Made by a program: the position numbers and the translations under genes. Under the pieces are notes generated by a model. It saw nothing but the letters and a program-made list of their open reading frames with translations, did not search any database and was not told the DNA's origin. Of a DNA stretch of 22,799 nt, positions 1,234-20,283 are shown piece after piece (the first letter of the stretch is position 1; each line of letters begins with the position of its first letter). The stretch comes from Gracilaria domingensis (Eukaryota > Rhodophyta > Florideophyceae > Gracilariales > Gracilariaceae): assembly GCA_022539475.1 (NCBI GenBank), contig VCMS01000498.1, positions 1 through 22,799 on the forward strand. Reading direction: 5' to 3'.

Positions 1234-4200
1234 ATGGGAGCCTCCAGCAATGGAGAGGCGCCCCCAGCGACGGGGTTTAGTGCGCCTGAGGCTGAGAAGC
1301 CTCGCTCCCCGGTCACAATCCTTTCGAGGAAAATGGCCACTACAGACGTGAACTCTGAGCACCTTGGTGTCTTGCGACGCCCGTGGATACGGTCTAAGAA
1401 CAGCCGGTTCCCGGATAGAGTCCTGGTCATGGCGAAACGTAACTACAAAGTTTACGCCGACCTAGGTGTTTCCGACCAGTATATGGTTCGGCAGTTGTCC
1501 GTGCTCGATACAGGAGCTGGGCCAAACTTTTTGGTTGAGTCTATGATTCCGCCGCACTTGCGGTTTCGCGTTCGTGCAGCGCCGCAGATTGATATAGCGG
1601 ATGCGAACAATCGGCCACTTTCGACTGTGGGAGTGATAGACCTGCTTGTCAGGCTTGGCCGCTACGTGGCGAAGCTCGATTTCTTGGTTTGCAAGCAGCT
1701 AGCCGCGCCGGTTATTCTCGGATGCGACTTCTGTGACCGCTTCGTCGATGCAATTCGACCGCGGCAGCGAACCATCGAAATGGAAGATGGGACTACTGTA
1801 CCGATCGTTCGGCGTCCCCTTCGACGGGCTTTGAAGAAGCAAGTTCCTTTGCCTGCTGCGCAGGAGCCTACAGCCGATGAACGGAAGTCTACGAAGCTCC
1901 GAGTCGCTCGGTCTATTTGCATCCCGCCTGAATCACAGGTCTGGGTTACTGTGACGTCCCCACAATGTGGCTTACAAACGGTACAACCGTTGCCTGCGTT
2001 ACAGGAGAAGCATCAGCTTGCCCTTGCTAATGGGATTGTTTTTGTTGAACCCGAGAAGCCTTTTCAGGTGTTGGTTGCGAACTTCAGCCGTTTTCCTCAA
2101 CGGTTGGTCAGAAGCCAAGTTATTGGTTCATTGCTTCCGCACCCTGCGGCTATAGTGCCTACTCAGGTTTCTATTGCCGAAGTTCTCGGAATCCTCGAAG
2201 CTGAGGAGGGGGAGGCGGAACGGACCAATTCCGAACCGAATACCGGACCGAACAGTTCGTCGGGAGATGCTACGCCGACTTCGTCGGATGCGAACAACCG
2301 CAGCCTGTCGAAGGAAGCAATGCCGACCTCGTCGGACAATAATGATAAGGACCTGAGTGCTGCTGACACGAAGGATAAGGCAGTACAGGAGCTTGAGTCT
2401 CTGGACTTCAGTCATGTTCCAGAGACTCACCGCGATAAATTGCGGCATATGCTCAAAGAGTTCACGCCCATGTGGGATGGTTCCCTCGGGAAGATTGGTA
2501 TTACCGAACATCGGATTGATTTGCTGCCAAATACTCGACCCATTTCACAGCACCCTTACAGGGCAGGACCGACAGCTCGGCAGGAGGAGAAAGCTCAAGT
2601 TGAGAAGATGCTCCGCGCTGGAGTTATCGAGCCGGCTCAGTCACCTTGGGCATCGCCGGTGGTGCTCGCGCCCAAAGCTGATGGGTCTTGGCGATTTTGC
2701 ATCGATTACCGCAAGCTAAACGCGGCTACAGGCAAGGATGTATATCCTATCCCACGAATGGATGAATGCATCGATTCGTTGGGCGACGCGAAAGTGTTCA
2801 CAACCCTAGATGCGAATTGGGGCTATTGGCAAGTTCCCGTAAGGGCTGAAGATCGTGACAAGACAGCCTTCGTTTGTCATGAAGGATTGTACCGATTCAA
2901 TCGGATGCCCTTTGGGTTAACGAACGCGCCAGCCACATTTCAACGTGCAGTGGACATTTTGCTTGCCCGCTTCAAGTGGAAGACTTGCCTGGTTTACCTG
3001 GATGACATCATTGTCTACTCCAGCAACCTGGACGAGCACTTGACCCATGTACGGGATGTGATGCGAGTCCTACGCGATGCAGGCATTACACTTAAGCTGA
3101 AGAAGTGCGAGTTCTTTACCGAAACCGTGAGGTATCTCGGCCATGTCATCCGTCCTGGACGGCTATCTATTGACGAAGCACGCGTGAAGTGCCTCAAAGA
3201 GGCTAAGCCTCCGCGGACGCAGACTGAACTCCGATCTTTTCTCGGCTTGTGCAATGTGTATCGCCGCTTCATTCCGAACTTTGCGGATATCGCGGCACCT
3301 CTAAACGAGCTTCTTTGCAAAGGACAGCCAGTCAAACTGGAAGCGTTCGACGACCGCACATCCGCGGCTTTTTCGTCGCTCGTTGACGCGATGACATCGC
3401 CACCGGTCTTATCCCTGCCTAGGGCTGGTTTGCCATATGCAGTAGATACGGATGCGAGCGACTACCAAGTCGGCTGTGCCCTATTCCAGACCACCAATGA
3501 TGGCGAGCGATTGCCAATTGGGTATTGGTCAAGGAGCCTCAACGTTCACGAGAGGAATTACTCGGTATCCGAGAAGGAGTGCTTGGCAGTTGTCTGGGCA
3601 TTACAGACACTGCGGCCCTATCTTATGGGGACCCGCTTCATTGTTCATACCGATCATTCGGTATTACGCTGGCTACTCTCTATAGCAGAGCCATCTGGCC
3701 GCTTGATGCGGTGGAGACTTCGCTTGTCGGAATTCGACTTCGAAATCCGTTACAAGAAAGGACTCCTGAACACTCAGGTTGATGCACTGTCCCGCTTGGA
3801 AACAGCGGCTGAAGCTGCGCCAGTCGATGATCTGGAGATACCGTGCTTCCTCGTGGAAGACGGCTCGAGCGATGCCGATGAAGAATCGGAAGGATGGGAC
3901 ATCTACGATGCTGTTTTAGCCGTGTCAGACACGCAACCCGAACCGGGCTCTTTCGTACCGATCAAGCCGGAGGAACTCATCCGGGAGCAGCACACCGACC
4001 GTTTTTGTACGGAGATTCGTAGTCGTCTAAACGGTGGAGCACAGTTGCCTTTCGTCGAGAACGACCAAGGATTTCTAATCCGAACTGTCGGAAACTGGCC
4101 ACAGATTGTGGTTCCGCACTCACTTCACTCACGAGTACTGCATTTGTCGCACTATGCGAAGTTGTCAGCCCACCCTGGTGGCAGGAAGTTGTACTACACC

Positions 4201-6783
4201 TTACGGAAGGACTTTTACTGGCCAGAAATGGCTTTCGACGCGTATGCCACTGTTCGTGGATGTTCTGACTGCGCGAAGAACCGCGTCAAGCTGCATAAGT
4301 ATTCCAAGAAGTTGGTACTATTCCCTGCTAGGGCTCCACTGGAGCTTGTGGCGATCGATCTACTCGATGAGTTTATTCGCACCCGCCGGGGAAACCGGTT
4401 TTTGCTTGTTATCACCGACCGCTTTTCTAAGCTGGTACGGACTGTGCCTTTAAAGAAGGTTACTGCTAGTGCGGTCGCCCAAGCTTTCGTTACTCACTGG
4501 GTTTTTGTCTACGGACCGCCGATTGACTTACTATCGGATAATGGACCGCAGTTCACGGCTAAGTTCTTTCAGGACGTATGCCGCATCTTGCGGATCCAAA
4601 ACTGGTTTACGACAACATATCATCCCCAGAGTAATGGGCAGGTTGAGCGTTTTAACCGCACGATGCTCAACGCATTGCGGACGTTTGTTGCCGAGCACCC
4701 GTCGGAATGGGATCAGTACACCGATGCGGTGACCTATGCCTACAATACGCAGGTTCATCGCACGACTCAGATCTCGCCGTTCGAGCTTGTGCTATCACGC
4801 GTCCCACCTTCGGTGGCTATCGAGTCACAGCCAACTTTGGATAAGTTCCCGTCGCCCCGTCTACACAGAGACGCCTGGAAGGACTGGCTTAAGAATATTA
4901 TCCCTACAGTTGGGCAGAATATCGCTAAGGCCCAGGCCGCATACAAGCGGAATTTCGACGCTAGAGTGCGTAAGAATGCCCCTCAGATCAGGGAAGGTAG
5001 CTTTGCCTTCGTACGGAAGGAGTACTACAACCCTGAAAAGGAGAAGCGCCACAAGCTTTCTCCTATCGCGGACGGCCCGTTCCGGGTTATTGCTGTCACC
5101 GACACAACGGTTGTCCTTGATATCAAGGGAGAGCACGAGCGTTTCTCGCTAGATCGCATATCGCCTGCGCCAAAGCCTGTTTCGCAGGATTCGCTACCGT
5201 CATCGTCGGCCCCTATCGCACCCACTGTGGAAACAGCCGTCGAAACGGAAACAGGCGCCGCGGCGGGTACTCGCACTCAACCGTCTGTGTTGCCGCATCC
5301 GGATCGCGGACTTGCTCATTTGCCTGCTAAGCCGGAATCTGACCGGTCGGTCTCCAATGCCGCACATGTGCACACGCGGATAAGGGCCCCTATGGGGATA
5401 CTCGCCGCCACCCCCGACACTCCCACTGAGGAGGGGGAGGAGGCAGGTCGTTCTTTTTCGTTGTCGCCGTCGTCGACGGAGTCGCCTTCGCAGGCCTCTG
5501 CATCGCACGCAAGTCGTGATGAATGCACGTCAACGCGCGACACACAGCCGGAGAGCCGGAAAGAAGAGAACGACGCGCAGCTACCGCGGAAGCCTCAAGA
5601 AGAGGAAGATCACTCCCGCTCACCACCGCCGTCGCGAACGGAGTTACGTTTGCAGGCCCAAGAACGGGAACACAGTACCGATGTGGTACGTGATTTGCAG
5701 CCGGAAAGCCGGAGGGATCGCACAGTTTCGCGGAGGCCTTCTGAGAAGGACGCCACCTCGGTGACGATTGCAGCCGGAAGACCGGAAGAGAAGGACGCGC
5801 CGTTACCACGGAAGGCTGAGGTGGAAGGCACCACTATGGTGAATAGCAAAGCCGGAAGTCCGGAGAAAGAAGAGTTAGTTCGAAAAAAACGTGCTGTTAC
5901 GGCAGACCCAACTTCGGGAGATTTTGGTGCAGCACCGAGTGCCAAAGCCGTCAAAAAGACGGAACCAACCACCAGTGTGGCGAACAGTCAAGCCACAGCA
6001 AGTGGGCAGCACTCAAGCACTGACGACGCGTGCACGTCGCGCCAAGTGTCGAGCTCCGTGGGAGATCCGCCTCCAACCGAGGATTACAGTGCGCAAGCCG
6101 GGCACGTGCCAGCCACAGACCTGGCGCCGTCTAAAAACGGTTCAAAAAATTCCGAATTTGAATCGGCTCTTGACAGCCATGCAAAGGCGCAGGTGTCACA
6201 AACCGCAGCACGCGGCGAACCGCCGCCACGGCACGTGCCAGAACACCACTCGCTGGCTCACCGCTCTGCGGACCGTTCACCGTCGCAACGGGAGATTGTG
6301 CCGGAACGCCGGAAGCTCGCTATTCGAGAAGACCGAAGCACGGTCACAGCCCAGCAGCATGGGGAGAAGAACCAGGAATCTGGAAGCATGATGGTCAGGA
6401 AAGTACCATGGTCACGGAGACCAAAGCCTGGCGTACAGGATGTACTGCCGTCAGGACGGAAGCCGATCACGAACGACGATGCCCACGACGGGAGAAGCGA
6501 CGACTACGCCTCGAAAGAGGATTCTTCAAGCAAGCCGCACACAGAGCGGAGTGTTCTCGATGAGGAATATGTCATTGACCGTCTGGTAAGTCACGGCTAC
6601 GCCCCTGACGGGAACTACTGTATCGAGTCCGTTGGTACGGCTACGCCTCTTCAGAGGATACGCACGAGCCCATTGAGCACTTGCCTCGCTCGAAGGTCTT
6701 GCAGTACCACCGTCGCACACGGACACCGATACCGGCCACGCTGGACAAGGCCCAAGTGGGTTGACCACCCACGTCTCTATTGA
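1234..6783 (+). CDS. pol: Pol polyprotein of element 1 (protease, RT, RNase H, integrase, long tail)
   Basis: This 1849-residue ORF begins at ATG 1234, but the frame is open from 1063, so pol may be made by a -1 shift from gag. Domains in order are: aspartic protease (DTGA at residues 92-95, ILGCD near 161-165); reverse transcriptase (MPFGLTNAPATF from 558, catalytic YLDD at 588-591); RNase H (DTDAS from 738); integrase with an HHCC finger (H973, H980, C1010, C1013) and a DDE triad D1042, D1102, E1138 with 59 and 35 residues between; and a GPF module (DGPFRVI, 1280-1286). About 480 low-complexity, charged residues follow, much longer than usual for Ty3 elements. The end (from about 1778) begins a chromodomain but leaves its frame near 6615. 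The product copies element RNA to DNA and integrates it. Confidence 0.95.
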   Translation: MGASSNGEAPPATGFSAPEAEKPRSPVTILSRKMATTDVNSEHLGVLRRPWIRSKNSRFPDRVLVMAKRNYKVYADLGVSDQYMVRQLSVLDTGAGPNFLVESMIPPHLRFRVRAAPQIDIADANNRPLSTVGVIDLLVRLGRYVAKLDFLVCKQLAAPVILGCDFCDRFVDAIRPRQRTIEMEDGTTVPIVRRPLRRALKKQVPLPAAQEPTADERKSTKLRVARSICIPPESQVWVTVTSPQCGLQTVQPLPALQEKHQLALANGIVFVEPEKPFQVLVANFSRFPQRLVRSQVIGSLLPHPAAIVPTQVSIAEVLGILEAEEGEAERTNSEPNTGPNSSSGDATPTSSDANNRSLSKEAMPTSSDNNDKDLSAADTKDKAVQELESLDFSHVPETHRDKLRHMLKEFTPMWDGSLGKIGITEHRIDLLPNTRPISQHPYRAGPTARQEEKAQVEKMLRAGVIEPAQSPWASPVVLAPKADGSWRFCIDYRKLNAATGKDVYPIPRMDECIDSLGDAKVFTTLDANWGYWQVPVRAEDRDKTAFVCHEGLYRFNRMPFGLTNAPATFQRAVDILLARFKWKTCLVYLDDIIVYSSNLDEHLTHVRDVMRVLRDAGITLKLKKCEFFTETVRYLGHVIRPGRLSIDEARVKCLKEAKPPRTQTELRSFLGLCNVYRRFIPNFADIAAPLNELLCKGQPVKLEAFDDRTSAAFSSLVDAMTSPPVLSLPRAGLPYAVDTDASDYQVGCALFQTTNDGERLPIGYWSRSLNVHERNYSVSEKECLAVVWALQTLRPYLMGTRFIVHTDHSVLRWLLSIAEPSGRLMRWRLRLSEFDFEIRYKKGLLNTQVDALSRLETAAEAAPVDDLEIPCFLVEDGSSDADEESEGWDIYDAVLAVSDTQPEPGSFVPIKPEELIREQHTDRFCTEIRSRLNGGAQLPFVENDQGFLIRTVGNWPQIVVPHSLHSRVLHLSHYAKLSAHPGGRKLYYTLRKDFYWPEMAFDAYATVRGCSDCAKNRVKLHKYSKKLVLFPARAPLELVAIDLLDEFIRTRRGNRFLLVITDRFSKLVRTVPLKKVTASAVAQAFVTHWVFVYGPPIDLLSDNGPQFTAKFFQDVCRILRIQNWFTTTYHPQSNGQVERFNRTMLNALRTFVAEHPSEWDQYTDAVTYAYNTQVHRTTQISPFELVLSRVPPSVAIESQPTLDKFPSPRLHRDAWKDWLKNIIPTVGQNIAKAQAAYKRNFDARVRKNAPQIREGSFAFVRKEYYNPEKEKRHKLSPIADGPFRVIAVTDTTVVLDIKGEHERFSLDRISPAPKPVSQDSLPSSSAPIAPTVETAVETETGAAAGTRTQPSVLPHPDRGLAHLPAKPESDRSVSNAAHVHTRIRAPMGILAATPDTPTEEGEEAGRSFSLSPSSTESPSQASASHASRDECTSTRDTQPESRKEENDAQLPRKPQEEEDHSRSPPPSRTELRLQAQEREHSTDVVRDLQPESRRDRTVSRRPSEKDATSVTIAAGRPEEKDAPLPRKAEVEGTTMVNSKAGSPEKEELVRKKRAVTADPTSGDFGAAPSAKAVKKTEPTTSVANSQATASGQHSSTDDACTSRQVSSSVGDPPPTEDYSAQAGHVPATDLAPSKNGSKNSEFESALDSHAKAQVSQTAARGEPPPRHVPEHHSLAHRSADRSPSQREIVPERRKLAIREDRSTVTAQQHGEKNQESGSMMVRKVPWSRRPKPGVQDVLPSGRKPITNDDAHDGRSDDYASKEDSSSKPHTERSVLDEEYVIDRLVSHGYAPDGNYCIESVGTATPLQRIRTSPLSTCLARRSCSTTVAHGHRYRPRWTRPKWVDHPRLY
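6621..6764 (+). pseudogene. Second half of the pol chromodomain, in the -1 frame
   Basis: The pol frame enters a chromodomain-like segment (EEYVIDRLVSHGY) at about 6565-6603. The rest of the fold is in a different frame: from 6621 the reading contains RVRWYGYASSEDTHEPIEHL, which matches the chromodomain pattern of a [VY][KR]W.GY core, an E.T.EP stretch and a following helix. That frame ends at TGA 6762-6764, close to the end of the current pol ORF. One missing base near 6615-6620, for example in the C before TG, would account for the break. Chromodomains of Ty3 integrases bind histone marks and guide integration into heterochromatin, so the family would be a chromovirus. The 63 or so residues that the pol ORF reads after the break are out of frame. 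Confidence 0.85.
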
Positions 6784-7272: not shown

Positions 7273-9072
7273 TTACGGGCCGGACGGTCCAGCACCTGGG
7301 GTGCCCCCACTACCGGGAGCCCCGGAGAAGCGCTGTGCCGCTTTCGCTTGCAACTCCGACTCGTCGGTCACCGTATCGGGAACGGCCACTCCCACGCCTC
7401 GAAGGAGGTCGCGAATGACCGCCGCTCGCGGAGTGAGAGAAGAACTGCCGCCCACGGCGGATGCTACATCCTGAGCCCACGGGCCGGTCGGAGCGGGAGC
7501 CGCTACAGCGGGTGGATCAACAATCACGACTTCGTCGTCATCTCCCGTAGCTTCGGGCTCCGAGGCAACCCCCACTGGGCTCCCCTGATCCATGGGACTT
7601 CCTCCCTCTGCAGGGTCATCACCGTCATCGTCGACGTATACGAACCCACGCGGGTGCCCTTCCGGGATATATCGCTCCTCTCGGCGGCGACCAGCCGCCT
7701 CAGCGGGACCAATTACCTCCCAAATCCATGGGTCAAAGTAGACGAAGTCGCCGGCGTTGACGTTCCGCCCGGGAGAACGGTCCGACTGCCGACGGACCCC
7801 GTCGGAAACCTGACTAGCAGGCACTTCATTCCAGTCAATCTGGTCAATGACGTCCACCAACGCGGTGGCTTCGCGCGCATTACGGACCGAGCCGAGCACT
7901 TCGGAGAGATCCAACGCTCGGATCGCTTGCCGGATGAGCTCCGGGATGAACCAACCTCGGTACGAATCATATGCCTCGATGAGGAGGAAAACCGCAACGC
8001 GGACGGTCCATTCTGTTGCCAGGATGCTCCACAGGCCGCGAGGCGGATCGTTCATGAAGTACGAGCCTATGTAAGTTAGGCAGGGCAGTAGTTCTACGTG
8101 ACACCCTCGTGGGACTTCGACCGCAGGCCAGAATGACGGCAGCGGCAGGTATCGCCCAGTATGGGAGTGACGCGCAATGCGTTCCACCTCCGTGCACTGG
8201 TACGGCACCAGTACCCCGAAGCGGGAACGCCATTTCCTCTCGAATCGGAGGCCTTCATGAAATTGCAACCGTCCAGGACGGCGAAGGAACCGGTACTCGG
8301 CGCGAAGGATCGGCCGCGCCCACAGGATCAACTCCTGCTGCGGCTGAACGGTGTCCGAGTATCGGTCAATTTCGTCCAACGCGTTGGCTAGATGGTCGCC
8401 GTAGCCGACCTCGCCGAAAGTTCGGTAACGTGCTACATCGTACTGGTACTGTGCCGGCACCGGATGTTCGTTCGGAGCTCGGAAGTGTCGCGCGTACCCA
8501 ATGCGGGCCATCTCATTGCGAGCGAATTGCCTCGTCTCGTTTCGACCTACAAAGAGGCAGCTCGGTATAACCGCAACGCGGGCGATCCAGTCCCATGAAC
8601 GGGTAACGTCAGCAGGAAGCCCACCAGGGAGTTGACCGTCGACAGCGTACGAGTCGACGAGCTCGGTATCCCGAACGGCTTCGGCGTCAAACCAGGGAGC
8701 CTGGGCAAAAAGGAAACTGTGCCGGTGCGGATCCCGGATGCGTAACGCGCCTGCGGTAGGCCATCCACCCAGCGTAGCTGGCATCTCGGCGTTGAACCAA
8801 TCCCATACGGGCGCGGGACCAGCCTGAGCTGGACCGTGATCTTGTCCGGAAGAACCCGGCTGGGAGGCAGCCGCCGACTGCGGGAGAGGTACAGACCGGA
8901 ACGGCGGGTTGGACACTTGCATGCGTGCCGTCGAGGACGGAGGGCCGTTCGGTGCGTTGGACATCGCGGAAGGGCTCGAGGTGACGAGATTCGCTGCTGA
9001 CGCCGGAGGTGTTGGTGGCTCCGAACAGTTCTCGGCAGACCCGTCTTGGGAGACTTCCTTATATACCTCCAT
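7273..9072 (-). CDS. Antisense accessory ORF of element 1, unknown function
   Basis: This intact 599-residue ORF runs opposite to pol, between pol and the 3' LTR. I do not recognise the protein. Residues 1 to about 90 are Pro/Ser/Ala-rich and look disordered. The middle (about 90-450) is rich in Trp, Tyr, Arg and Phe and looks folded. The last part is acidic and Gly/Pro-rich, with YVDDDGDDP and GDDDEVVIVD. I see no signal peptide, clear membrane segment, zinc motif or retroelement enzyme motif. The ATG at 9072 overlaps a TATATAAG on the same strand (9065-9058), so a transcript from that box would more likely start translation at Met37 (8964). Antisense extra ORFs between pol and LTR are known in some plant Ty3 elements; homology to those is not implied. 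Confidence 0.7.
   Translation of the reverse strand: MEVYKEVSQDGSAENCSEPPTPPASAANLVTSSPSAMSNAPNGPPSSTARMQVSNPPFRSVPLPQSAAASQPGSSGQDHGPAQAGPAPVWDWFNAEMPATLGGWPTAGALRIRDPHRHSFLFAQAPWFDAEAVRDTELVDSYAVDGQLPGGLPADVTRSWDWIARVAVIPSCLFVGRNETRQFARNEMARIGYARHFRAPNEHPVPAQYQYDVARYRTFGEVGYGDHLANALDEIDRYSDTVQPQQELILWARPILRAEYRFLRRPGRLQFHEGLRFERKWRSRFGVLVPYQCTEVERIARHSHTGRYLPLPSFWPAVEVPRGCHVELLPCLTYIGSYFMNDPPRGLWSILATEWTVRVAVFLLIEAYDSYRGWFIPELIRQAIRALDLSEVLGSVRNAREATALVDVIDQIDWNEVPASQVSDGVRRQSDRSPGRNVNAGDFVYFDPWIWEVIGPAEAAGRRREERYIPEGHPRGFVYVDDDGDDPAEGGSPMDQGSPVGVASEPEATGDDDEVVIVDPPAVAAPAPTGPWAQDVASAVGGSSSLTPRAAVIRDLLRGVGVAVPDTVTDESELQAKAAQRFSGAPGSGGTPGAGPSGP
9058..9065 (-). promoter_or_regulatory. TATA-like box for the antisense ORF
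   Basis: TATATAAG lies on the - strand about 95 nt upstream of Met37 of the antisense ORF. It sits within the first codons counted from the first ATG (9072). The motif is a good match to a TATA box, but promoter use is inference. Confidence 0.35.
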
Positions 9073-9426: not shown

Positions 9427-10510
9427 GTACGGGAAGTAAACCTCAACGAGGCCTTTGGCTCTGATCTTCTTGCCGCTTGTGCACGGTCACAAGCCCCACC
9501 CTGGGGAATACCGCCGCAATTCCGGGCTGATCAACCAACCTCCGTCCCTGAGGAGTACTAATCCGTCGTCACGGCACTTTTCTTATCTATTTTATTGTTT
9601 TCATTTCCGTCTTACGGCTTTCGCTACTCTGCCCTACATTGTAGGTTTGTCCCATTTTGCCTCGGGAGTTTTCCAGCCTATCGCGAGTCAGTGCTCCGCA
9701 GTGCGGCTCGTTTGTTGATCTTTTGTCGTCCCATACCGTTTGGCTGGATACCCCCACTCGCTGTGGCTCGCCGGAACCACCCGGATACCTACGCCGATTC
9801 TACCCCTTCTACCTCCGACTGCACGCCCAGATCGGGGCCACCCGGATTTACACCCGGCTCGTGTTGGCCCTATCGGAGGGTTCTGCCGCTCGACTGCCCT
9901 TCACAGGGAGCAGGGCCTGAACACCCTGAGGTGCTCGTCCGCGACGCGGCTTGTTGTTTTCCCGTCGAGGGTTTTGCACCACACTTTGTCGTCTCAACCT
10001 TCTTCCCCCCCATCCCCAACCTCTCTCCATCTCCCCCTTTGGCGGCTTGGTCTCACCGCCCACAACGTCCCCTGCTACTCACACAGCCCCTCCTCTGGGC
10101 TCGTCTCGTGTGAGTGGGCAAAGCGTCCTCACTACCCGACCGTTGGGTTAGCCTTGTGCGAGCTAGCCTCTCTCTCCCGAAGTCCGTTCTTCTTGGTTTC
10201 CCGTCCCTCCTTCTTCTCCGTGGTGATTCTCTTTAATGTCGTTGTTCTCGTCATCGTTCTTTCCCGTTTCCATACCCCACGGTTGTCTTTGTTGTTGCTT
10301 CCCTTCGTTCCTTCGTCCTTGTGCCGGCCTCCCCTGCCTGCATCTGTTCCCTTGCTTCTCTTGTCGGCCTTGGAATCTGGTGTCGCTGGTTCTTTCGCGT
10401 TGCGATTCCGTTTCTCACATAGTGTTGCTTTGCATCTGTTGTTGCTAGACACACTGTATGATACGGCGTAAGGTTCCTATTAACCTACGGCCCTGAGGCA
10501 ATCGTTCAAG
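9427..10510 (+). other. Pyrimidine-rich LTR leader, no credible gene
   Basis: This region is probably transcribed. It is strongly C/T-rich, especially 9580-10440. Open frames across it translate to Leu/Ser/Pro/Phe-rich strings that follow from the base bias. From 9984 on it is homologous to element 2 LTRs, but more diverged from them than the downstream zinc-finger ORF is. The segment before 9984 is specific to element 1. Confidence 0.6.
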
Positions 10511-10511
10511 A

Positions 10512-10580
10512 GTAAGTTGTTCTCAGCTGCTCTTTTGGCATTTTGTGTGACTACTAACTTCTTGTTTGTTTCACATCAAG
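10512..10580 (+). other. Predicted 69-nt spliceosomal intron in the LTR (element 1 copy)
   Basis: The donor GTAAGT is at 10512-10517, an exact TACTAAC branch point at 10552-10558, then a T-rich stretch and the acceptor CAAG ending at 10580. Exon 1 ends in A (10511) and exon 2 begins TG (10581-10582), so splicing creates an ATG in frame with the zinc-finger ORF. The same signals occur in both other copies. Confidence 0.7.
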
Positions 10581-11011
10581 TGCCAACGTCTTTCGTTTCA
10601 TCCAGCGAGTATTCGTCGGTGGTTGACCCGGACGAGCGTCTAGAAGAAGTCTCCAACCCCGTTCTGCAGATAAAAATGTCGGCTGTGCAGCCTCTTGACG
10701 GGCCACGCGAGCGCCATATCTTTCGCGTAGCCACTCAGAAGGAGAAGCGCCGTCGTAACTCTCCGCCGCGTAAGCGAATCTTCAAACACTGTCGTGTCTG
10801 GGACATCAAGTTCCAGAGCCAGCGTCAGCTTGAAGTCCATCAAGCCGGCCGTCGCCATCGCAGAGCTTTGCGCCGTGCAAACTACACCGAGCTGGACATT
10901 CACTGCAAGGCTTGCGACATCCGGTTCTCTGAAGCCCACGATCTGCGCGTCCACTACAGGAGCCGCCGTCATCGTGCGACACTTAGAAAGAAGAACAATA
11001 CTATCTTTTAG
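10581..11011 (+). CDS. LTR-encoded two-finger U1/JAZ-type C2H2 protein, copy 1
   Basis: If the intron is removed, translation starts at an ATG made of A10511 and TG 10581-10582, giving 143 residues and ending at TAG 11009-11011. Without splicing the first in-frame ATG is 10676 (111 residues, context AAAAATGTC). A basic stretch (KEKRRRN, PPRKRIFK) precedes two fingers of the C-x2-C-x12-H-x5-H type with the HxxGRRHRRAL ending typical of U1-C/JAZ fingers, which commonly bind RNA, often double-stranded. In this copy the second Cys of finger 1 is Trp (TGG, 10799-10801), so that finger is probably broken. Finger 2 (CKACDIRFSEAHDLRVHYRS, then RRH) is intact. The gene lies wholly inside the LTR, so it would be carried at both element ends and transcribed before gag. 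RNA binding or regulation of the element is inference. Confidence 0.75.
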
Positions 11012-11309
11012 AGCACAGGTCTCTCCTTTCATTGTCCAGTTGTGACACATTTCTATTCATATCTCATTACATATATTATCCCTGTTTGTTCTTCTTTATC
11101 TTCTTGTCTATCGTTTGGTATCCCTTCTCTGTTCTTGTGTTCGTGCTTGTGTTGTTTGGCTTCTGCTGCACTCTATCTACGTAAGCTTATATTTGGCTAG
11201 TGCTTCTTCATCCGATTGGACTGGTACTCTACGAGAGCAAACTTTATTCTTATTGTTTTTGCCCGCTTTGGCTGTAACCGCCGACGCCCTCACCAAAATG
11301 GCGTTTTCA

Positions 11310-11444: not shown

Positions 11445-11741
11445 TGAAAACGCCATTTTGGTGATGGCGTCGGCGGTTACAGCCAAAGGGGGCAAAAATG
11501 ATAAAAATAGAGTTTGCTCTCGTAGAGTACCAGTCCAATCGGACGAAGAAGCACTAGCCAAATATAAGCTTACGTAGATAGAGTGCGGCAGAAGCCAAAC
11601 AACAAAGCACGAACACATGAACAGAAGAGAGATACCAAACGATAGACAAGAAGATAAAGAAGAACAAACAGGGATAATATATGTAATGAGATATGAATAG
11701 AAATGTGTCACAACTGGACAATGAAAGGAGAGACCTGTGCT

Positions 11742-12172
11742 CTAAAAGATAGTATTGTTCTTCTTTCTAAGTGTCGCACGATGACGGCGGCTCCTGTAGT
11801 GGACGCGCAGATCGTGGGCTTCAGAGAACCGGATGTCGCAAGCCTTGCAGTGAATGTCCAGCTCAGTGTAGTTTGCACGGCGCAAAGCTCTGCGATGGCG
11901 ACGGCCGGCTTGATGGACTTCGAGCTGACGCTGGCTCAGGACCTTGATGTCACAGACACGACAGCGTTTGAAGATTCGCTTACGCGGCGGAGGGTTACGA
12001 CGGCGCTTCTCCTTCTGAGTGGCTACGCGAAAGATATGGCGCTCGCGTGGCCCGTCAAGAGGCTGCACAGCCGACATTTTTATCTGCAGAACGGGATCTG
12101 GGACTTCTTCTAGACGCTCGTCCGGGTCAACCACCGACTAATACTCGCTGGATGAAACGAAAGACGTTGGCA
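11742..12172 (-). pseudogene. LTR-encoded zinc-finger ORF, copy 2, with early stop
   Basis: This is the same gene as at 10581-11011. Both fingers keep all ligands (CRVCDIK... and CKACDIR..., each C-x2-C-x12-H-x5-H). However, the frame that would start at the splice-made ATG (A12242 joined to TG 12172-12171) meets TAG at 12140-12138, where copies 1 and 3 have TCG. Translation could still begin at the internal ATG 12077, giving 111 residues with both fingers intact and ending at 11742. The gene is inside the 3' LTR of element 2, ending 297 bases from the LTR tip. Confidence 0.75.
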
Positions 12173-12241
12173 CTTGATGTGAAACAAACAAGAAGTTAGT
12201 AGTCACACAAAATGCCAAAAGAGCAGCTGAGAACAACTTAC
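12173..12241 (-). other. Predicted 69-nt intron, copy 2
   Basis: GTAAGT at 12241-12236, TACTAAC, and CAAG ending at 12173 are conserved with the element 1 copy, same length. Confidence 0.65.
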
Positions 12242-13395
12242 TCTTGAACGATTGCCTCAGGGCCGTAGGTTAATAGGAACCTTACGCCGTATCACACAGT
12301 GTGTCTAGCAACAACAGGTGCAAAGCAACACTATGTGAGGAACGGAATCGCAACGCGAAAGAACCAGCAAACCCAGGGTCCAAGGTCGACAAGAGAAGCA
12401 AGGGAACAGATGCAGGCAGAGAAGGCCCGCACAACGATGGAGGAACGGAAAGGGACAACAACAAAGACAACCGCGGCGGGTAAAAACGGGAAACAAGGGT
12501 AACGAGAACAACGACAACAAAGAGAATCACCACGGAGAAGAGGGAGAGACGGGGAACCAAGAAGAACAGACTTCGGGAGAGAGATGCACGCCCGCAGAAG
12601 GCTAACCCAACGGTAGGGTAGTGCGAACGCTTTTGCCGACTCACACGAGACGAGCCCAGAGGAGGGGCTGTGTGAGTAGCAGGGAACGTTGTGGGCGGTG
12701 AGACCAAGCCGCCAAAGGGGGAGAGTGAGACAGGTTGGGGATGGGGGGGAAGAAGGTTGAGACGACAAAGGGGGAAAGAGAAGAGGAGTGGGGGTGGGGG
12801 GAGGTCGTCGAAGGGGAAGTGGTCTGGCCGGAGTTGAGTCGGAGGCGACTGCTCCGGCTCTTTTATGCACAACCGCACCGTCGATTCCAGGCGGGAATCG
12901 ACGGTACGGTTGGCTTGGCCAATGGATGCGTTGTATCTACCGTACTAGCCTATAAGAGGCGTAGGTGGTAGATACTTTAAGCGCATATGCCGCCACAGGG
13001 GGCGCCTACGCAACGCAGTACACAGCGTGGAATGCACGTGTACTTGCGCAAGCGCAGGCGCCTCCCGTGGGTGACCACGAATTTGGCAATTGACAGCCGA
13101 TGAGGTCTGGTGGTCAGCATCGGAGCGCTCTCTGCCACTTAAGTAGACAATCTCATGTCACCCTGCTTGTAGTGCGGCGCCTCCTGGCCACACGCAAGGT
13201 AAATTCTGCGTAGAAAACTAACTAAACCTAAGATAGGATTAACTACAATAAAGCATTTTTAAACTATATTCTGTATTCTCGCTGCGTTGGGCACAACGCA
13301 GCAGTGTAGACACGTACGCCTGTCACGTGTACCGTTTGACGGGCCACACACCACCAAACCCAAACGACGCTACGCCGGGCGTCGAAAGTACTGGG
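12242..13395 (-). other. LTR leader and U3 of element 2, no gene
   Basis: From 12242 to about 12840 lies a leader that is C/T-rich on the - strand, with Leu/Ser/Pro-rich spurious frames. U3 runs from about 12870 to 13395 and is full of inverted repeats: 12877-12905 (12-bp arms); GCTGCGTT/AACGCAGC at 13281-13302; and GTATCTACC/GGTAGATAC around 12935-12975. AATAAA at 13247-13252 is on the + strand and so does not serve this element. Confidence 0.6.
12860..12905 (-). promoter_or_regulatory. Element 2 LTR promoter: TATA-like box with upstream hairpin
   Basis: CATAAAAG lies on the - strand at 12867-12860. Just upstream is a perfect 12-bp stem, ACCGTCGATTCC (12877-12888) and GGAATCGACGGT (12894-12905), loop 5. 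The module shared with element 1 starts about 90 nt downstream at 12771, so only the transcribed part is shared. The box is a fair, not perfect, TATA match. An identical arrangement is at 20965-21010. Confidence 0.5.
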
Positions 13396-16300
13396 CTAAT
13401 CCTCCGTGGTATAGTGGAAGAGAAAGGAGACTGCTAGCTTCTCTGGGTGGGGGATGTAGCTGAGTATCCGAGCGATTCCTGTGCGAGTATAGTGCGACAT
13501 ATGGTCCTGAGTCTCTTGTATGTAGAGTTGTGACTCTGGGAGATGCCCATGCAAGGAGACTGCATGGTGGTAAAGATATACCACGAATTCCGGCGCGATG
13601 TTACTTCCGTAGTTCTGGCGCACACGTCGAAATAATGCTCTTAAGATAGATCCTCCTCTACGACTCAAGAACGGGCCTGAGATTGAGAACAGGGCGAGTG
13701 AGGCATGCGTCAGCGTCCAGGTAACCCTTTCAACCTCTGGGATAGAGACGTTCAAAGGGCTAAGCCATGAATGTATGCTTTTCCCTCCAATAATAAAGTG
13801 ACACGAGAGATGGGGTGCAGTGAGGATATTGTAGTCAACGCGGAGTGGCATTACAGTGATCTGAGTGGGATATGGGGCTGGGGTGTCTTCGCCTTCCGTA
13901 ATAGTGGCTACCACCTCGTCCTGCAGATGAACTGGTCGGCGGTGATACCGCTTGAGCCGGCGGGCGTGGACTGCTTCTTTTGTGTAGCGATTATGAGGGG
14001 ACACTAGGACATATCGGGGGTGCCTGGCTTTAACCACTTTACAGGGTCCGTAGAATTTTGACTGAAAGGCAGGCCACTTCACGTTGGGGTTTAGAGCCTT
14101 CCCATGTATCACCAAGACCTCATCACCGACGTTGAACCGGTGCCCAGACTTGGGGTCGTCTTGTCGATTGGGTTGAGATAGAACTCTGGAAGCTCTGCCT
14201 GCGGAATTTGACAGTAGTTCATGATGACGATTAGTGGGGGTTGGATCTATGATGAGCGGGGGTAGGTCGTCTGAGCTCATCCATGGGACTGTGCCATACA
14301 TGAGCTCAAAAGGAGAAAACCCGCCACCCAGCCGGCGCCTCCTGTATCCGTAAAGTATTTGCTCGAGGGCTTCATCCCATTCTTGTCCCTTATTGAAGAT
14401 TGTCTTGGCAATCGATTTCTTGATGGTTCCAACCATTCTTTCAGCCCGGCCATTAGACATAGGGGCATAGGCCATGGTGGGCTTGAGGGATATCTTCTTA
14501 CTTTCCATGTATGCCTCGACTGCCTTGGCTTTGAAGGAACTGAAGTTGTCGGACACGATCGTCAGCGGGGGACCAAACGGGGAAACGATCTGAGATCGAA
14601 CAAAGTGAATGACGGTGGTAGAGGTCTGATTACCGTAGGCCGCGGCAATAGGCCATCCTGTTATGTGTTCTACACCAATCAGAGCAAAACGGTTGCCATT
14701 CCTGGTAGCCGGAAGAGGACCGGCGAAGTCCACAGAGAATGTATGAAATAGGCCAGTCAATGGGGCTCTTTGTCCTGGCCGGTACTTAAGCAGAGGTGTT
14801 GTGAACTGACACCCATCACAACTGCGAACATATGAAAAGATGTCGGAGTACATTCCAGGCCACCAGAATCGGAACTGGACCAGATCTTTAGTAGCCTCCA
14901 AGTCCCAATGTCCTATGTCATCATGAAAGGATGAGAGGATGCCACGGCGCTTGCTTACAGAGGGTACCACTCTTAATCCTTTCTTGGTACGGCGATAGAG
15001 GAGACCTTCCCAAAGGAAGAACTTCTTCGCATTCCTCTTAATCAAAGCGCGGATCTTAGGGTTTTCTTCAGGAAAAGAAAAGGCGGCAAGGTACAACTTG
15101 ATGTGCGCGCAGAAGGGCTCCAAGTCATAGACTTCGTCCGTCGCATTCAGTACAACAGACACGTCATCATCCGGCTCCGGTGGATCCCAAACGGCAAAGC
15201 GAGAGAGATAGTCGGCAGCCCGATTCTTGTCGCCAGATCTATAGACTATAACGAACTCGTATTCCGCTAGAAGGTCCATCCATCGGGCTAGGCGCCCGTG
15301 AATGTCCTTCTTTTGGAATGCATACTTTAGAGCTTCGTGGTCCGTAACAAGCTCAAAGAGGAGACCTCCGAGTAGATACATGCGAAACTTCTTCAAAGCA
15401 AAGACCACGGCTAGGGCCTCCTTTTCGCAAGTAGAATACTTTCGCTCGGCGGCATTAAGCGTTCGACTGGCAAATTGAATTGGGTGATACATTCCGTCCC
15501 CTTTCTTTTGTGACAGAACGGCACCAAGCGCGACTGAAGAAGCATCGGTTTCAACTCTAAAAAGCTTCTCAAAGTCGGGAAATGCTAAGACCGGCGGGGA
15601 TACTAACTTTCTCTTCAGATCCTCAAACGCGGTCTTCATCTCAGCGGTGAAGTTCAGCTTTCCCTTCCCTGTAGTGGCAGCATGCAATACTGTTGACGTA
15701 TCCACGAAATCCTTTATGAACCTTCGATAATAACTGGCTAGACCGAGAAAACTTCGGAGCTCGGTCACCGTCGAGGGTTCGGGGGCTTTTTGGATGACGT
15801 CGATCTTGTCTTGATCAACCGAAGTGCCTTCCTTGTTGATGACGTGACCAAGCAGTTTGATACGGGGCTGTGCGAAATCACACTTGGATATTTTTATCTT
15901 CAGACCGTGACTTGCAAGGATCTCGAGCACCCTGGTTAGGTGGTACAAATGTTCTTCCAGGCTTCTCGAGAAGATGACAACGTCGTCTATATAGACGCGA
16001 GCAAACTCTACCCCATGAAGGACCGCGTCCATCATCCTTTGAAACGTGGCTGGGGCATTCATGAGACCAAAAGGCATGACTTCAAACTGGAAGGTTCCCT
16101 GGCGACAAACAAAAGTCGTCATTTCTTTGCAGTCAGGAGCCATGCGCACCTGCCAGTATCCGGAGAAAAGGTCTAGGGTCGTGAAGAACGAACAATCACC
16201 CAAATCGTCAAAGATCTGTTCCATGTTTGGTAGGGGCCACCTGTCGGGCGTCATGACCTGGTTCAGACCCCGATAGTCGACACAGAACCGGGGCTTTCCA

Positions 16301-16596
16301 TCCTTCTTATGTGCGATGACAACTGGGAAGGACCAAGGAGAGGTGGACGGCTTGATGATCCCGGCGGACAACATTTTGTCAACCTCTTTCCGAACAACGT
16401 CGTCATGCTTTGGGGGTAGCCTTCGGACCTTCGAATGAATTGGGGTCTCGACACTGAGGTCAAACCTGTGCGTTACCGGCACGTCAGAGCGCCTAAGATC
16501 ATACAAGGACCATGCTATGACATTTAAGTTATCCAGAACAGCGAGGAGGTCCACCTGTCTATCTCTTGGGAGATGAGAGATCCGTTCTAGAATCAC
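13396..16596 (-). CDS. pol: Pol of element 2 (RT, RNase H, integrase)
   Basis: 1066 residues are read from GTG 16596, which is unlikely to be the true start. The frame is open from 16623 and overlaps the protease ORF in the -1 frame. Numbering from 16596: RT contains MPFGLMNAPATFQRMMD and catalytic YIDD (202-205), with Ile where YLDD or YVDD is usual; RNase H has ETDAS (349-353); the integrase finger is H558, H563, C593, C596; the DDE triad is D623, D683, E719 (59 and 35 residues between). A GPY-like module (YGPCKVV) is at 849-855. About 200 further residues have no motif I recognise; they end at TAG 13398-13396. There is no chromodomain. The 3' part is duplicated at 21501-22112, identical over 202 residues. 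Confidence 0.95.
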   Translation of the reverse strand: MILERISHLPRDRQVDLLAVLDNLNVIAWSLYDLRRSDVPVTHRFDLSVETPIHSKVRRLPPKHDDVVRKEVDKMLSAGIIKPSTSPWSFPVVIAHKKDGKPRFCVDYRGLNQVMTPDRWPLPNMEQIFDDLGDCSFFTTLDLFSGYWQVRMAPDCKEMTTFVCRQGTFQFEVMPFGLMNAPATFQRMMDAVLHGVEFARVYIDDVVIFSRSLEEHLYHLTRVLEILASHGLKIKISKCDFAQPRIKLLGHVINKEGTSVDQDKIDVIQKAPEPSTVTELRSFLGLASYYRRFIKDFVDTSTVLHAATTGKGKLNFTAEMKTAFEDLKRKLVSPPVLAFPDFEKLFRVETDASSVALGAVLSQKKGDGMYHPIQFASRTLNAAERKYSTCEKEALAVVFALKKFRMYLLGGLLFELVTDHEALKYAFQKKDIHGRLARWMDLLAEYEFVIVYRSGDKNRAADYLSRFAVWDPPEPDDDVSVVLNATDEVYDLEPFCAHIKLYLAAFSFPEENPKIRALIKRNAKKFFLWEGLLYRRTKKGLRVVPSVSKRRGILSSFHDDIGHWDLEATKDLVQFRFWWPGMYSDIFSYVRSCDGCQFTTPLLKYRPGQRAPLTGLFHTFSVDFAGPLPATRNGNRFALIGVEHITGWPIAAAYGNQTSTTVIHFVRSQIVSPFGPPLTIVSDNFSSFKAKAVEAYMESKKISLKPTMAYAPMSNGRAERMVGTIKKSIAKTIFNKGQEWDEALEQILYGYRRRRLGGGFSPFELMYGTVPWMSSDDLPPLIIDPTPTNRHHELLSNSAGRASRVLSQPNRQDDPKSGHRFNVGDEVLVIHGKALNPNVKWPAFQSKFYGPCKVVKARHPRYVLVSPHNRYTKEAVHARRLKRYHRRPVHLQDEVVATITEGEDTPAPYPTQITVMPLRVDYNILTAPHLSCHFIIGGKSIHSWLSPLNVSIPEVERVTWTLTHASLALFSISGPFLSRRGGSILRALFRRVRQNYGSNIAPEFVVYLYHHAVSLHGHLPESQLYIQETQDHMSHYTRTGIARILSYIPHPEKLAVSFLFHYTTED

Positions 16597-18911
16597 CTCC
16601 TCCTTGTTCGTGTCGGGGGGTAGTCACGTCGGTCGAGTGTGCGACCAATTGAATCTTGTGCAATTGGATCTTGCAGGGAATACTCAATGTCCTGTGCTGG
16701 GCACGTAGGCTCAGCTACAACTTCTTCGTCGCAGCTTGGGTCTTGTGATTGTTCATCATCTCCCGGGATCTGGGTGTCGATTTCGTCCGGAGGTAGTTCT
16801 TCTTCAAATGCTATGACAAAACCGCCGGAGTCGTCGTCCTCCAGCATTCCTACGCGGTTGAGCGGTACTTTCTGTGCTTCTAGATGAGGGGGATGCGCGG
16901 GTGACGGTACTGGATGTCGCAATTGAACCCGCACGTCCAAGAAGTCAGGAACTGACTGGCCTTCGGCTAAAGGAAGCAGAACTACTTCGTCTCTGATCGG
17001 GATAGTAAGGACAGGGTCGCCGTAGAGTGGTGAGCCAATGAGGTCTACTTCCTCCGGTGAGGAGTCGTCCTCATCGTCACTACCGTCTGGGAACTCCGCC
17101 GGGATTTCACCTACGGGCCCATCGTCAGGAGGCCGGACTTCACTGTCCTCGCTGGCGTTATTAGCTCTGGGTGCAATACTTGTAGGAATCACGACATTCA
17201 CATCTTCTGGCTGTACGCTGGTATCCGTAGACTCGCTCTGGAAGGAGGAGGGATTGGGTCCGGACCTTTCTTCGACAGGGGGATCTGCCTGCACTTCTTC
17301 CTCCGCGTCTTCGAATCGTCGATCCTCGTCATCATCATACTGGGAGATCAGTTGGGATTGCTGACGGGGTGCTGGTCCGACTGCCACCCTTTCTCCCTCT
17401 GGAGGAATTTGTGGGCCATCAGGTCCGGCAATATGCACATTATTTGCATGAGGGTTCTCCCCACGCTCCGCGGTCAAACTATCCAGATGGATCTGAGTCC
17501 CGATGGTACGCCAGGTGAAGTTAGGGCCGTTGGAATCTTCAGCCTGAGTCGGTCGACGGGCTTGGTCAGATACTTGAGGTCCTTCGGACGGCCCGGCTCG
17601 GGTGGGCTGCGCTGTCACATTGGCCGGTTCTTCCTCACCATCGTTCTCCTCTTCGCCATCCTGGGATCCTGCGTCCCCATCCCTTTCCATTACTGCCACT
17701 AAGGTCACTTCGGCGCCACCAGGGGTTCGCTGCTTTGGAAGGGGGAGGTTAGCAAAGTCCTCCGACTCATCTTCAGAGTCAGACGGGATAGCATCAGAGT
17801 CTGACGTGAAATCTTCGCTATCTGTCTCAGACAACGGGACAAATGCTTCTAATCCGGAACGATCGGAGTCGAGTCCTATAACGACGTGCTTCTTGTTGTA
17901 ACTCTTGGTGACTTCTTGTGTACCAAGATCGATACAGGCATGCAGCTTTTTTAGCGTGGGGTTCCCGATGATTACATCGAAGGGGGGCTTCTCGATAACA
18001 AGAAACTCGAGGGATACTCGGAGGTCATCGAACCTTACAGGAACGCCCCCTAGAGTACCATAAATGCGGGCAACATTGCCATCAGCTACTTTAATCGTCC
18101 TTTCAGTGGGGTTCGGTGTCAGTAGCAGATGGTCCGCTAGTTCTGCTGACATTAGATTCGGGACAGCGCCAGAGTCCAAAAGGGCTTGGGTCATGGTCCC
18201 ATAGACTGTAATAGGCACGACCTTAAGACGAGAGTTTTCACGCTCGACCTGGGTCGCATTGACCTTTCTGGTCGTTGAACGGCCAGAGATGATTCGACGC
18301 AGATCTTTCTTGGCCGCATCGGCGTCCCCGCGAATGAGTTGACCGAATGTGAGCCCGGTCGGGGCATTCGCGAGCTCCTCCATTACGTTATACTTTCCGG
18401 CGTGCTCCTGGAGCATTGACTTGCCAGAGAGCTTCTTTGTGGAGGCCTTCTTAGGCTTCCCGGATCGATTACGCGTAGCTGAGCGAATCAAGCCAAATGG
18501 GGTGTCGCTTGCTGGGTTCAGAAGCTCCTTGACACCAACCCGATGTTCCAGGCGGGCCTGCTTTGGCAATGGGGCGCCATCAGCGGCTCGTTTGGCCATC
18601 GCTACAGTTTCGCGATCCTGAAGGTCATCCTCGGTGACTACAGAAACTTGGTTGGGTCTGGGAACTTCCGGGATTTCTTTCTGATTTTCGGCATCGAAAC
18701 GGACCTTCTTTTCCGAATGGCGCTTCCAACACGTTGCGATGGAATGCCCCATCTTTCCACAGCCCCCACAACGCGTATCGCGATGCGGATTCTGTGGACA
18801 GCGAGTAGAAAAGTGACCAGGCTTCTGACAGTAGCCACAAACTTGCTCTTCATCAGCCTTCGGGGTGGTCCTGACTTCTTCTTCATCAGGAGAGTGAGTT
18901 CTGCCAGCTGA
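16593..18911 (-). CDS. Nucleocapsid-protease ORF of element 2
   Basis: The first ATG is 18752 (719 residues), but the frame is open from 18911 and the extension matters. It contains two tandem CCHC zinc knuckles, CGYCQKPGHFSTRC (18839-18798) and CGGCGKMGHSIATC (18770-18729), the second running through the ATG. Numbered from 18752, FGQLIRGDA (136-144) precedes an aspartic protease with DSGA at 193-196 and IIGNP at 261-265. From about 310 to 690 the chain is acidic, Ser/Pro/Glu-rich and probably disordered, an unusually long spacer before RT. The frame is -1 relative to gag. The switch must fall between 18911 and 18839, where I see no canonical slippery heptamer, so a one-base loss in the sequence is as likely as programmed shifting. 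Confidence 0.85.
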   Translation of the reverse strand, partial: SAGRTHSPDEEEVRTTPKADEEQVCGYCQKPGHFSTRCPQNPHRDTRCGGCGKMGHSIATCWKRHSEKKVRFDAENQKEIPEVPRPNQVSVVTEDDLQDRETVAMAKRAADGAPLPKQARLEHRVGVKELLNPASDTPFGLIRSATRNRSGKPKKASTKKLSGKSMLQEHAGKYNVMEELANAPTGLTFGQLIRGDADAAKKDLRRIISGRSTTRKVNATQVERENSRLKVVPITVYGTMTQALLDSGAVPNLMSAELADHLLLTPNPTERTIKVADGNVARIYGTLGGVPVRFDDLRVSLEFLVIEKPPFDVIIGNPTLKKLHACIDLGTQEVTKSYNKKHVVIGLDSDRSGLEAFVPLSETDSEDFTSDSDAIPSDSEDESEDFANLPLPKQRTPGGAEVTLVAVMERDGDAGSQDGEEENDGEEEPANVTAQPTRAGPSEGPQVSDQARRPTQAEDSNGPNFTWRTIGTQIHLDSLTAERGENPHANNVHIAGPDGPQIPPEGERVAVGPAPRQQSQLISQYDDDEDRRFEDAEEEVQADPPVEERSGPNPSSFQSESTDTSVQPEDVNVVIPTSIAPRANNASEDSEVRPPDDGPVGEIPAEFPDGSDDEDDSSPEEVDLIGSPLYGDPVLTIPIRDEVVLLPLAEGQSVPDFLDVRVQLRHPVPSPAHPPHLEAQKVPLNRVGMLEDDDSGGFVIAFEEELPPDEIDTQIPGDDEQSQDPSCDEEVVAEPTCPAQDIEYSLQDPIAQDSIGRTLDRRDYPPTRTRRR
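16614..16620 (-). promoter_or_regulatory. Candidate -1 frameshift site (C CCC CCG)
   Basis: The pol frame is closed by TGA at 16626-16624 and the protease frame ends at TGA 16595-16593, so any shift must occur in about 30 nt. Inside that window is C CCC CCG in protease phase, the X XXY YYZ layout for a -1 slip. A seventh C, if lost in sequencing, would equally put both ORFs in one frame. Confidence 0.5.
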
Positions 18912-19556: not shown

Positions 19557-19852
19557 TGAAAACGCCATTTTGGTGATGGCGTCGGCGGTTACAGCCAAAG
19601 GGGCAAAAACGATAAAAATAGAGTTTGCTCTCGTAGAGTACCAGTCCAATCGGACGAAGAAGCACTAGCCAAATATAAGCTTACGTAGATAGAGTGCGGC
19701 AGAAGCCAAACAACGAAGCACGAACACATGAACAGAAAAGGGATACCAAACGATAGACAAGAAGATAAAGAAGAACAAACAGGGATAATATATGTAATGA
19801 GATATGAATAGAAATGTGTCACAACTGGACAATGAAAGGAGAGACCTGTGCT

Positions 19853-20283
19853 CTAAAAGATAGTATTGTTCTTCTTTCTAAGTGTCGCACGATGACGGCG
19901 GCTCCTGTAGTAGACGCGCAGATCGTGGGCTTCAGAGAACCGGATGTCGCAAGCCTTGCAGTGAATGTCCAGCTCGGTGTAGTTTGCACGGCGCAAAGCT
20001 CTGCGATGGCGACGGCCGGCTTGATGGACTTCGAGCTGACGCTGGCTCTGGACCTTGATGTCACAGACACGACAGCGTTTGAAGATTCGCTTACGCGGCG
20101 GAGGGTTACGACGGCGCTTCTCCTTCTGAGTGGCTACGCGAAAGATATGGCGCTCGCGTGGCCCGTCAAGAGGCTGCACAGCCGACATTTTTATCTGCAG
20201 AACGGGATCGGGGACTTCTTCTAGACGCTCGTCCGGGTCAACCACGGACGAATACTCGCTGGATGAAACGAAAGACGTTGGCA
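19853..20283 (-). CDS. LTR-encoded zinc-finger protein, copy 3
   Basis: The open frame has no stop from the splice-made ATG (A20353 joined to TG 20283-20282) to TAG at 19853; the internal ATG is at 20188. Finger 1 (CRVCDIKVQSQRQLEVHQAG, then RRH) has all ligands. In finger 2 the first zinc-binding His is Tyr (TAC, 19912-19910; CAC in copies 1 and 2), so it is probably impaired. Downstream of it the LTR continues 296 bases to its tip and then gag, so this gene would be the first one on the element 2 RNA. Confidence 0.75.

Follow-up and report, generated by a model that had tools for sequence, protein, structure and literature searches.

Protein genes in LTRs and regulators made from spliced RNA

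Rev, Rex and Rem, the small regulators of complex retroviruses, are made only from spliced RNA, and an intron in the 5′ leader is known in other retroelements. The superantigen gene (sag) of MMTV lies in the U3 region of the 3′ LTR, begins with an ordinary ATG and is expressed through spliced RNA. As for zinc fingers that act on RNA, those of the U1-C type bind the duplex formed by U1 and the 5′ splice site. A title cited in PMC2661877 presents the MMTV superantigen as a protein encoded within a retroviral LTR, and the paper itself describes Rem as the product of a doubly spliced RNA. Protein genes in LTRs and regulators restricted to spliced RNA are both established; we found no precedent for splicing that creates the start codon of an LTR gene. 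The literature searched, most of it outside subscription journals, contains no report of an LTR zinc-finger gene of the kind described here or of a split start codon in a retroelement. Yeast GCR1 is not a case of a split start (PMC7826247).

Here, we describe a two-finger gene in the LTRs of Ty3-type elements of the red alga Gracilaria domingensis. The window, i.e. the whole stretch of DNA analysed, is contig C498 with a length of 22,799 nt; the genome searched for further copies comprises 77.9 Mb on 680 contigs. The element is like other Ty3/gypsy (Metaviridae-like) elements in its TG...CA LTRs, in the primer-binding-site-like stretch beside the LTR and in the order of protease, then RT–RNase H–integrase. 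It is unlike them in that its LTR holds a zinc-finger gene under selection with a predicted divided start codon. Unlike MMTV sag, the algal gene lies on the 3′ side of the putative promoter, and its ATG would be made by splicing. With Rev, Rex and Rem it shares the features of a small basic protein for which spliced RNA is the only predicted source and of an unspliced RNA that would serve as genome and gag-pol template; however, the algal protein carries zinc fingers where the retroviral regulators are arginine-rich export proteins, and the likeness is at most an analogy. The fingers themselves follow the C-x2-C-x12-H-x5-H pattern of the JAZ, ZFa and zf-met (U1-like) proteins and pass the respective Pfam cut-offs, RNA binding being putative in the present case.

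The zinc-finger gene in the LTR is very probably real. The best explanation of the observations set out below, and one that we consider likely, is that a spliceosomal intron divides the start codon of a two-finger LTR gene, the protein being made from spliced RNA.

The Ty3-type element and its LTRs

The Ty3-type element that carries the gene lies on the minus strand, with a 5′ LTR at ~21453–19557, internal ORFs and a 3′ LTR at ~13348–11445. Comparison of the two LTRs, together with a reading of the TG start, places the 5′ LTR (hereafter copy 3) at 19557–21453 (minus strand; TGTGG...TTTTCA, ~1.9 kb), and the same comparison places the 3′ LTR (copy 2) at 11445–13348 (minus strand). Consistent with the limits of copy 3, similarity stops at 19557 in 44 of the 88 matched loci and starts at 21453 in 8 of them. 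At 11 loci each, similarity begins at 20971 (the TATA-like site) or at 21148; it seems that sequence ahead of the transcribed part has been swapped between subfamilies. A third copy (copy 1; 9984–11309, plus strand) is a fragment of an LTR of the same family in the opposite orientation. It is truncated at its 5′ side rather than a whole LTR: similarity begins at ~9984, downstream of the TATA-like site, so that the upstream part and the TATA-like site itself are missing.

Pfam matches assign an aspartic protease to the internal ORF at 16593–18752 and RT, RNase H and integrase, in the Ty3 order, to the ORF at 13396–16374 (both minus strand). For the integrase, Integrase_H2C2 scored 58.4 bits, above its cut-off of 25.5, and rve scored 28.8 bits, below its cut-off of 32.6. 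Some metagenome contigs carry a pol that is ~57% identical. Direct LTRs with TG...CA ends, a protease upstream of RT–RNase H and an integrase after RNase H place the element in the Ty3/gypsy group. Directly after the 5′ LTR follows TGGTACTCTCGCC, a primer-binding-site-like stretch; Rfam and tRNA scans of the window returned no matches. A TATA-like CATAAAAG at 20965–20972 (minus strand) is, by sequence only, the putative promoter, and the RNA would start ~30 nt downstream of it. The last ATG of the LTR (19566–19568, minus strand; AAAATGGCG) stands just ahead of the primer-binding-site-like stretch and could be the start of gag, reading across that stretch.

The surroundings are rich in related sequence. 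In the window, the 5′ LTR is preceded (21453–22799) by the end of pol from a further copy of this element (ORF 21501–21956), indicating that elements share LTRs in tandem, and tandem runs of three elements at a spacing of ~8–9 kb are present on other contigs (C92, C526). A second Ty3-type element occupies 1234–6783 on the plus strand as one ORF of 1849 codons that encodes RT, RNase H and integrase, followed by a long C-terminal extension to which no Pfam family matches. The 599-codon ORF at 7273–9072 (minus strand), which has no Pfam match at E ≤ 1, is possibly the gag of another element.

A predicted intron that divides the start codon

The first-pass annotation had proposed that a 69-nt intron in copy 1 is flanked by the two parts of a start codon. 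Inspection of the sequence bears this out: the interval 10512–10580 (plus strand) begins with GTAAGT, contains TACTAAC and ends with CATCAAG, and its removal would join A10511 to TG10581–10582, yielding an ATG in frame with the ORF that ends at 11011. The 69-nt interval is letter-identical in copy 2 (12241–12173) and copy 3 (20352–20284), where the predicted introns run at 12173–12241 (minus strand; A12242/TG12172–12171) and at 20284–20352 (minus strand; 69 nt, GTAAGT...TACTAAC...CATCAAG), respectively. In copy 3, the putative exon 1 (20353–20942, minus strand) comprises ~590 nt devoid of ATG, and its last base, A20353, would be the first base of the start codon. The coding part of exon 2 (19853–20283, minus strand) would supply the TG of the start (20283–20282), followed by 142 codons and a stop, and encodes finger 1 at 20006–20074 and finger 2 at 19892–19960 (both minus strand, C-x2-C-x12-H-x5-H, one His being changed in finger 2).

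The further claim that all three LTR copies keep this arrangement is right for the splice signals and the identical 69-nt interval but does not extend to the protein, which no copy encodes undamaged. Exon 2 of copy 1 (10581–11011, plus strand) has lost a zinc-binding Cys, with Trp replacing the second Cys of finger 1; exon 2 of copy 2 (11742–12172, minus strand) contains a TAG stop at codon 12 (12140–12138); and in copy 3 a Tyr stands in place of the first zinc-binding His of finger 2. Three damaged copies could be called a dead gene, which is why the rest of the genome was needed. The ATG at codon 33 (10676) that the ORF finder had used is present in the window copies and absent from 25 of the 30 best-scoring copies.

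A donor, a branch site and an acceptor at the first AG after the branch, as expected of a spliceosomal intron, occur together above chance when measured against shuffled sequences (see below), and from these signals we infer that the interval is removed from the RNA. The host seems intron-poor: nine of the chaperonin matches span almost the entire family profile in a single frame, and one chaperonin gene is interrupted by a GTAAGT...TTAG intron deduced from its frame. Contig C680 (179,836 bp) carries rbcL and a chaperonin gene that we take to be groEL. The best matches of the rbcL product are the chains 8bdb, 1bwv and 4f0h, which are of the red type, the latter two from Galdieria. For gamma-tubulin, full-length hits reach 94% identity; the highest-scoring of those that carry an organism name is from the red alga Rhodosorus marinus (77%), the glaucophyte Cyanoptyche scoring lower at the same 77%, and the top-ranked entry, labelled Camelus ferus, covers 87% at 71%. 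These matches point to a host that is probably a red alga.

Selection on the gene across the genome

A protein search of the genome returned 264 candidates, 150 of which were scored, all of them at E ≤ 0.001. We read 90 loci, namely the 30 best and 60 picked for spread and divergence, which do not constitute a random sample. The reference was matched by 88 of these, of which 80 were near full length; they represent 68 unique sequences, of which 42 have an intact exon 2 and 26 a broken one.

The broken copies (26 of 68), together with the lack of any undamaged one among the three in the window, are what one would see if a captured host gene had left the ORF as an untranslated fossil, its frame being open by chance or through recent amplification. 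The distribution of substitutions speaks against this. Across the 68 unique copies, pN/pS is 1.19 for changes found in one copy versus 0.24 for changes found in at least four; in the 42 intact copies, the corresponding values are 1.26 and 0.11. The control frames +1 and +2 gave 1.02 and 1.77 for shared changes, and the antisense frames gave 1.06, 0.48 and 1.47, the value of 0.48 being taken as a shadow of the sense codons. An antisense ORF of 136 aa over the same bases was considered as well and set aside, its copy-3 version having no Pfam match. One-copy changes are taken to have arisen mostly after insertion, and the low ratio for shared changes next to a nearly neutral one for private changes argues for a gene that is selected in replicating lineages and decays once inserted. 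Moreover, six relatives keep the zinc ligands, except for the one His that is altered in the window copy chosen. Given this selection test, the fossil explanation is very unlikely. The first-pass annotation had suggested a genome search for intact copies combined with a selection test, and had named random indels and a dN/dS near 1 as the outcome that would speak against a gene; the ratio of 0.11–0.24 for shared changes instead points to purifying selection and supports a zinc-finger gene inside a Ty3-type LTR.

The predicted junction is well kept among the 42 intact unique copies, with A in 41, GT in 41, AG in 40, TG in 40 and all four in 37. In-frame ATGs are absent from the whole of exon 2 in 37 of the 42, and each of the eight zinc ligands is retained in 39–42 of them. 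Even among the broken unique copies, 20 of 26 keep A, GT, AG and TG. Conservation of the TACTAAC motif was dropped as evidence: in the window family 59 of 68 copies retain it, which is on a par with other 7-mers of the intron (median 56).

Copies that have lost the intron were not found among the loci read, 85 of 90 of which aligned across it, and within the intron each of the 68 unique copies shows at most one gap position. When intronless copies were sought with the 16-base junction, 66 matches were obtained versus 32 for a control pattern, and the ten loci extracted included none of the window family. The absence of intronless copies is neutral, since it is also expected if unspliced RNA is the genome.

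A different reading of the same locus is that the protein is made from unspliced RNA through a non-ATG start, the 23 codons of the intron being open and the frame extending to 175 codons with a hydrophobic beginning. In the window family the in-frame reading of the intron indeed contains no stop, and many copies list an open frame of 175 aa. Yet seven intron positions have a variant in at least 20 copies, and these fall on all three codon positions, with only two of the seven at the third, in contrast to the strong selection on exon 2. The related families, described next, bear on this reading as well.

Related families with the same gene

An alignment of six proteins shows that relatives of the window sequence differ considerably in their distance from it, with identities of 42% for L041, 39% for L107, 37% for L042, 32% for L101 and 18% for L130. 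In this alignment, all but one of the eight zinc ligands are invariant, the exception being the His that is changed in the window copy used, and L041, L042, L101, L107 and L130 each pass the Pfam cut-off of zf-met or jaz. Four families besides that of the window keep the predicted A/TG junction, with introns of 67, 72, 74 and 142 nt. The predicted junctions read AAGAAA/GTAAGT and CCCACAG/TG in L041 (67 nt), AAAGA/GTAAGT and ATACAG/TG in L107 (72 nt; L108 is alike), AAAA/GTACGT and CATTCAG/TG in L106 (74 nt), and CGCAA/GTAAGT and TTTCCAG/TG in L101 and its relatives (142 nt). L042, a relative of L106 and the only unbroken copy of that family, has a GC donor, not GT.

Read from the junction, the frame is open through the fingers in the window family (L003), L101 and L042; it stops after 27 codons in L041, 76 in L107, 46 in L108 and 32 in L106, and every copy of the L041 and L107 types that was read is frame-broken before the fingers. 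Since these four are broken early, their frame was judged by the likeness of the first residues rather than by an intact gene: these residues resemble each other and those of L042, with a shared VLDLE/VLELE stretch. To gauge chance, one copy per family was subjected to 2000 dinucleotide shuffles of the 400 nt before the junction (211 nt for L107) and the 60 nt after it, a success being an A/GT...branch...AG/TG intron in the same frame that is open to the end of the stretch. Such an arrangement arose twice in L003, never in L041 or L107, once in L106 and twice in L101. As the families are homologous, what they share is the conservation of one arrangement and not five independent inventions. The arrangement is not universal either: a sixth relative, L130 (C75:108900–110450), has a 333-codon open frame and an acceptor-like CAG followed by TA, which would give ATA instead of ATG.

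These families weigh further against translation from a non-ATG start. Intron lengths of 67, 69, 72, 74 and 142 nt do not keep the frame, three of the five (67, 74 and 142) not being a multiple of three. In the L101 family, an in-frame stop lies inside the intron and the open frame begins there, making the non-ATG reading impossible in this family and leaving it possible in that of the window. Altogether, we regard this reading as improbable and favour a start codon assembled by splicing.

The L101 type is a second abundant family, with at least 40 matches (40 scored of 144 candidates) at 94–100% identity. On contig C441, two direct copies lie 6.8 kb apart with a Ty3-type pol between them (protease, RT, RNase H and integrase), an arrangement from which we infer that they are LTRs; this pol is 42% identical to that of the window over 369 residues. 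Among the 16 copies read, pN/pS is 0.72 for single changes versus 0.24 for changes shared by at least three, and the other frames gave 2.17 and 1.44. An acceptor could be found at 13 of 19 loci, none of which has a Met after the start; nine of the 13 readings run for 204–207 codons, and the remaining four stop at 7, 95, 135 and 168. The acceptor AG has been lost in two of 16 copies (L116 and L125). Within the first 45 nt of the intron, a nearer TAG/TG would give a different ORF of 25 codons, possibly through an alternative splice form.

A leader poor in ATG

The unspliced leader of copy 3 contains a single ATG up to the end of the ORF versus 6.6 expected (500 shuffles, a fraction of 0.006 being as low). 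Its exon 1 alone (590 nt, counted from a point 30 nt downstream of the TATA-like site) has none versus 2.3 expected, a difference that is not significant (0.064). The same scarcity is seen in the L101 ORF, with one ATG versus 6.0 expected (0.004). A filter for clean junctions was passed by 46 of the 90 loci read; exon 1 (560 nt) is free of ATG in 40 of these and exon 2 (430 nt) in 33. ATGs do occur in other parts: the upstream piece of L101 has seven, about as many as expected, the 269 nt adjoining the donor being free of them; the exon-1 part of copy 1 has two; and copy 3 has three between the end of the ORF and the gag region. An ATG-poor leader suggests that unspliced RNA could be scanned toward gag with few false starts, the ATG of the zinc-finger gene appearing only upon splicing.

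A leader of this length, like the leader introns of other retroelements, would also suit an intron that is real but regulates gag only, in that splicing makes the leader shorter, with the two-finger ORF playing the part of a minor upstream ORF. Such a role for the intron leaves unexplained why the protein is under strong selection and why an A precedes the TG at the junction in five families, and we consider this explanation unlikely.

The protein

The predicted protein of ~143 residues has an acidic start, a very basic stretch and two C-x2-C-x12-H-x5-H fingers, a pattern that the initial reading of the sequence had assigned to the U1-C/JAZ type. In the profile search that had been proposed along with it, copy 2 scored 39.5 bits for zf-C2H2_jaz (cut-off 22.6) and 37.0 for zf-met (cut-off 21.2). 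In the L101 type, where one finger matches, zf-met is passed (34.6, cut-off 21.2) and jaz is not (19.4, cut-off 22.6). The best match by sequence in the PDB is the RNA-binding protein ZFa (E 0.0045). A fold search with a predicted model (mean pLDDT 78, pTM 0.35) returned nothing at E ≤ 0.001, most of the weak hits being fingers that bind DNA; RNA binding, to which the Pfam and ZFa matches point, is therefore a lead, not a result. Homologues of the whole protein were not found at E ≤ 0.01 in a database of 5.8 billion proteins (70 candidates scored, with exon 2 of copy 1 as the query), and the viral contigs searched gave no match.

Proposed mechanism and outlook

The explanation that we favour starts from a conserved two-finger gene of the JAZ/zf-met type that sits between the putative promoter and the primer-binding site. 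A short, predicted spliceosomal intron would divide its start codon such that exon 1 ends with A and exon 2 begins with TG, an arrangement that recurs in five families and is accompanied by selection on the gene, few other in-frame ATGs and the ATG-poor leader. The unspliced RNA, in which ATGs are almost absent as far as the ORF end, would act as the genome and as the template for gag-pol, and most intact copies could not start the zinc-finger protein at an ATG from it. The spliced RNA would gain an ATG, the first on the message, and give rise to the basic zinc-finger protein. The choice between spliced and unspliced RNA would thereby decide whether the protein is made. Splicing itself, the start site of the RNA and the division of labour between the two RNAs are the deduced steps of this scheme, and the least certain part is that the protein may bind RNA, perhaps the element's own leader.

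A more far-reaching version, which we regard as possible but doubtful, is that the splice-gated start codon constitutes a life-cycle switch with a Rev-like feedback that originated independently in an algal Ty3 lineage and is present in at least five LTR families. Here, the ATG of a regulatory RNA-binding protein would be hidden behind an intron, and a leader of more than 1 kb would be kept nearly free of ATGs for the benefit of gag. An early spliced message would yield the protein, which may then bind the element's RNA or the duplex of U1 and the 5′ splice site and so favour unspliced RNA.

If the favoured explanation is true, splicing would create an initiation codon, going beyond the choice of a reading frame. 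Elements present in many copies, in which mutation and selection are open to counting, would have preserved such a splice-made start through long evolutionary times. A protein gene under selection would reside within the leader portion of a Ty3 LTR, and because of this position a solo LTR with its promoter could in principle express the gene. The divided start may also have its reason in this position, as it would allow a gene to sit in a long leader without halting the ribosomes bound for gag.
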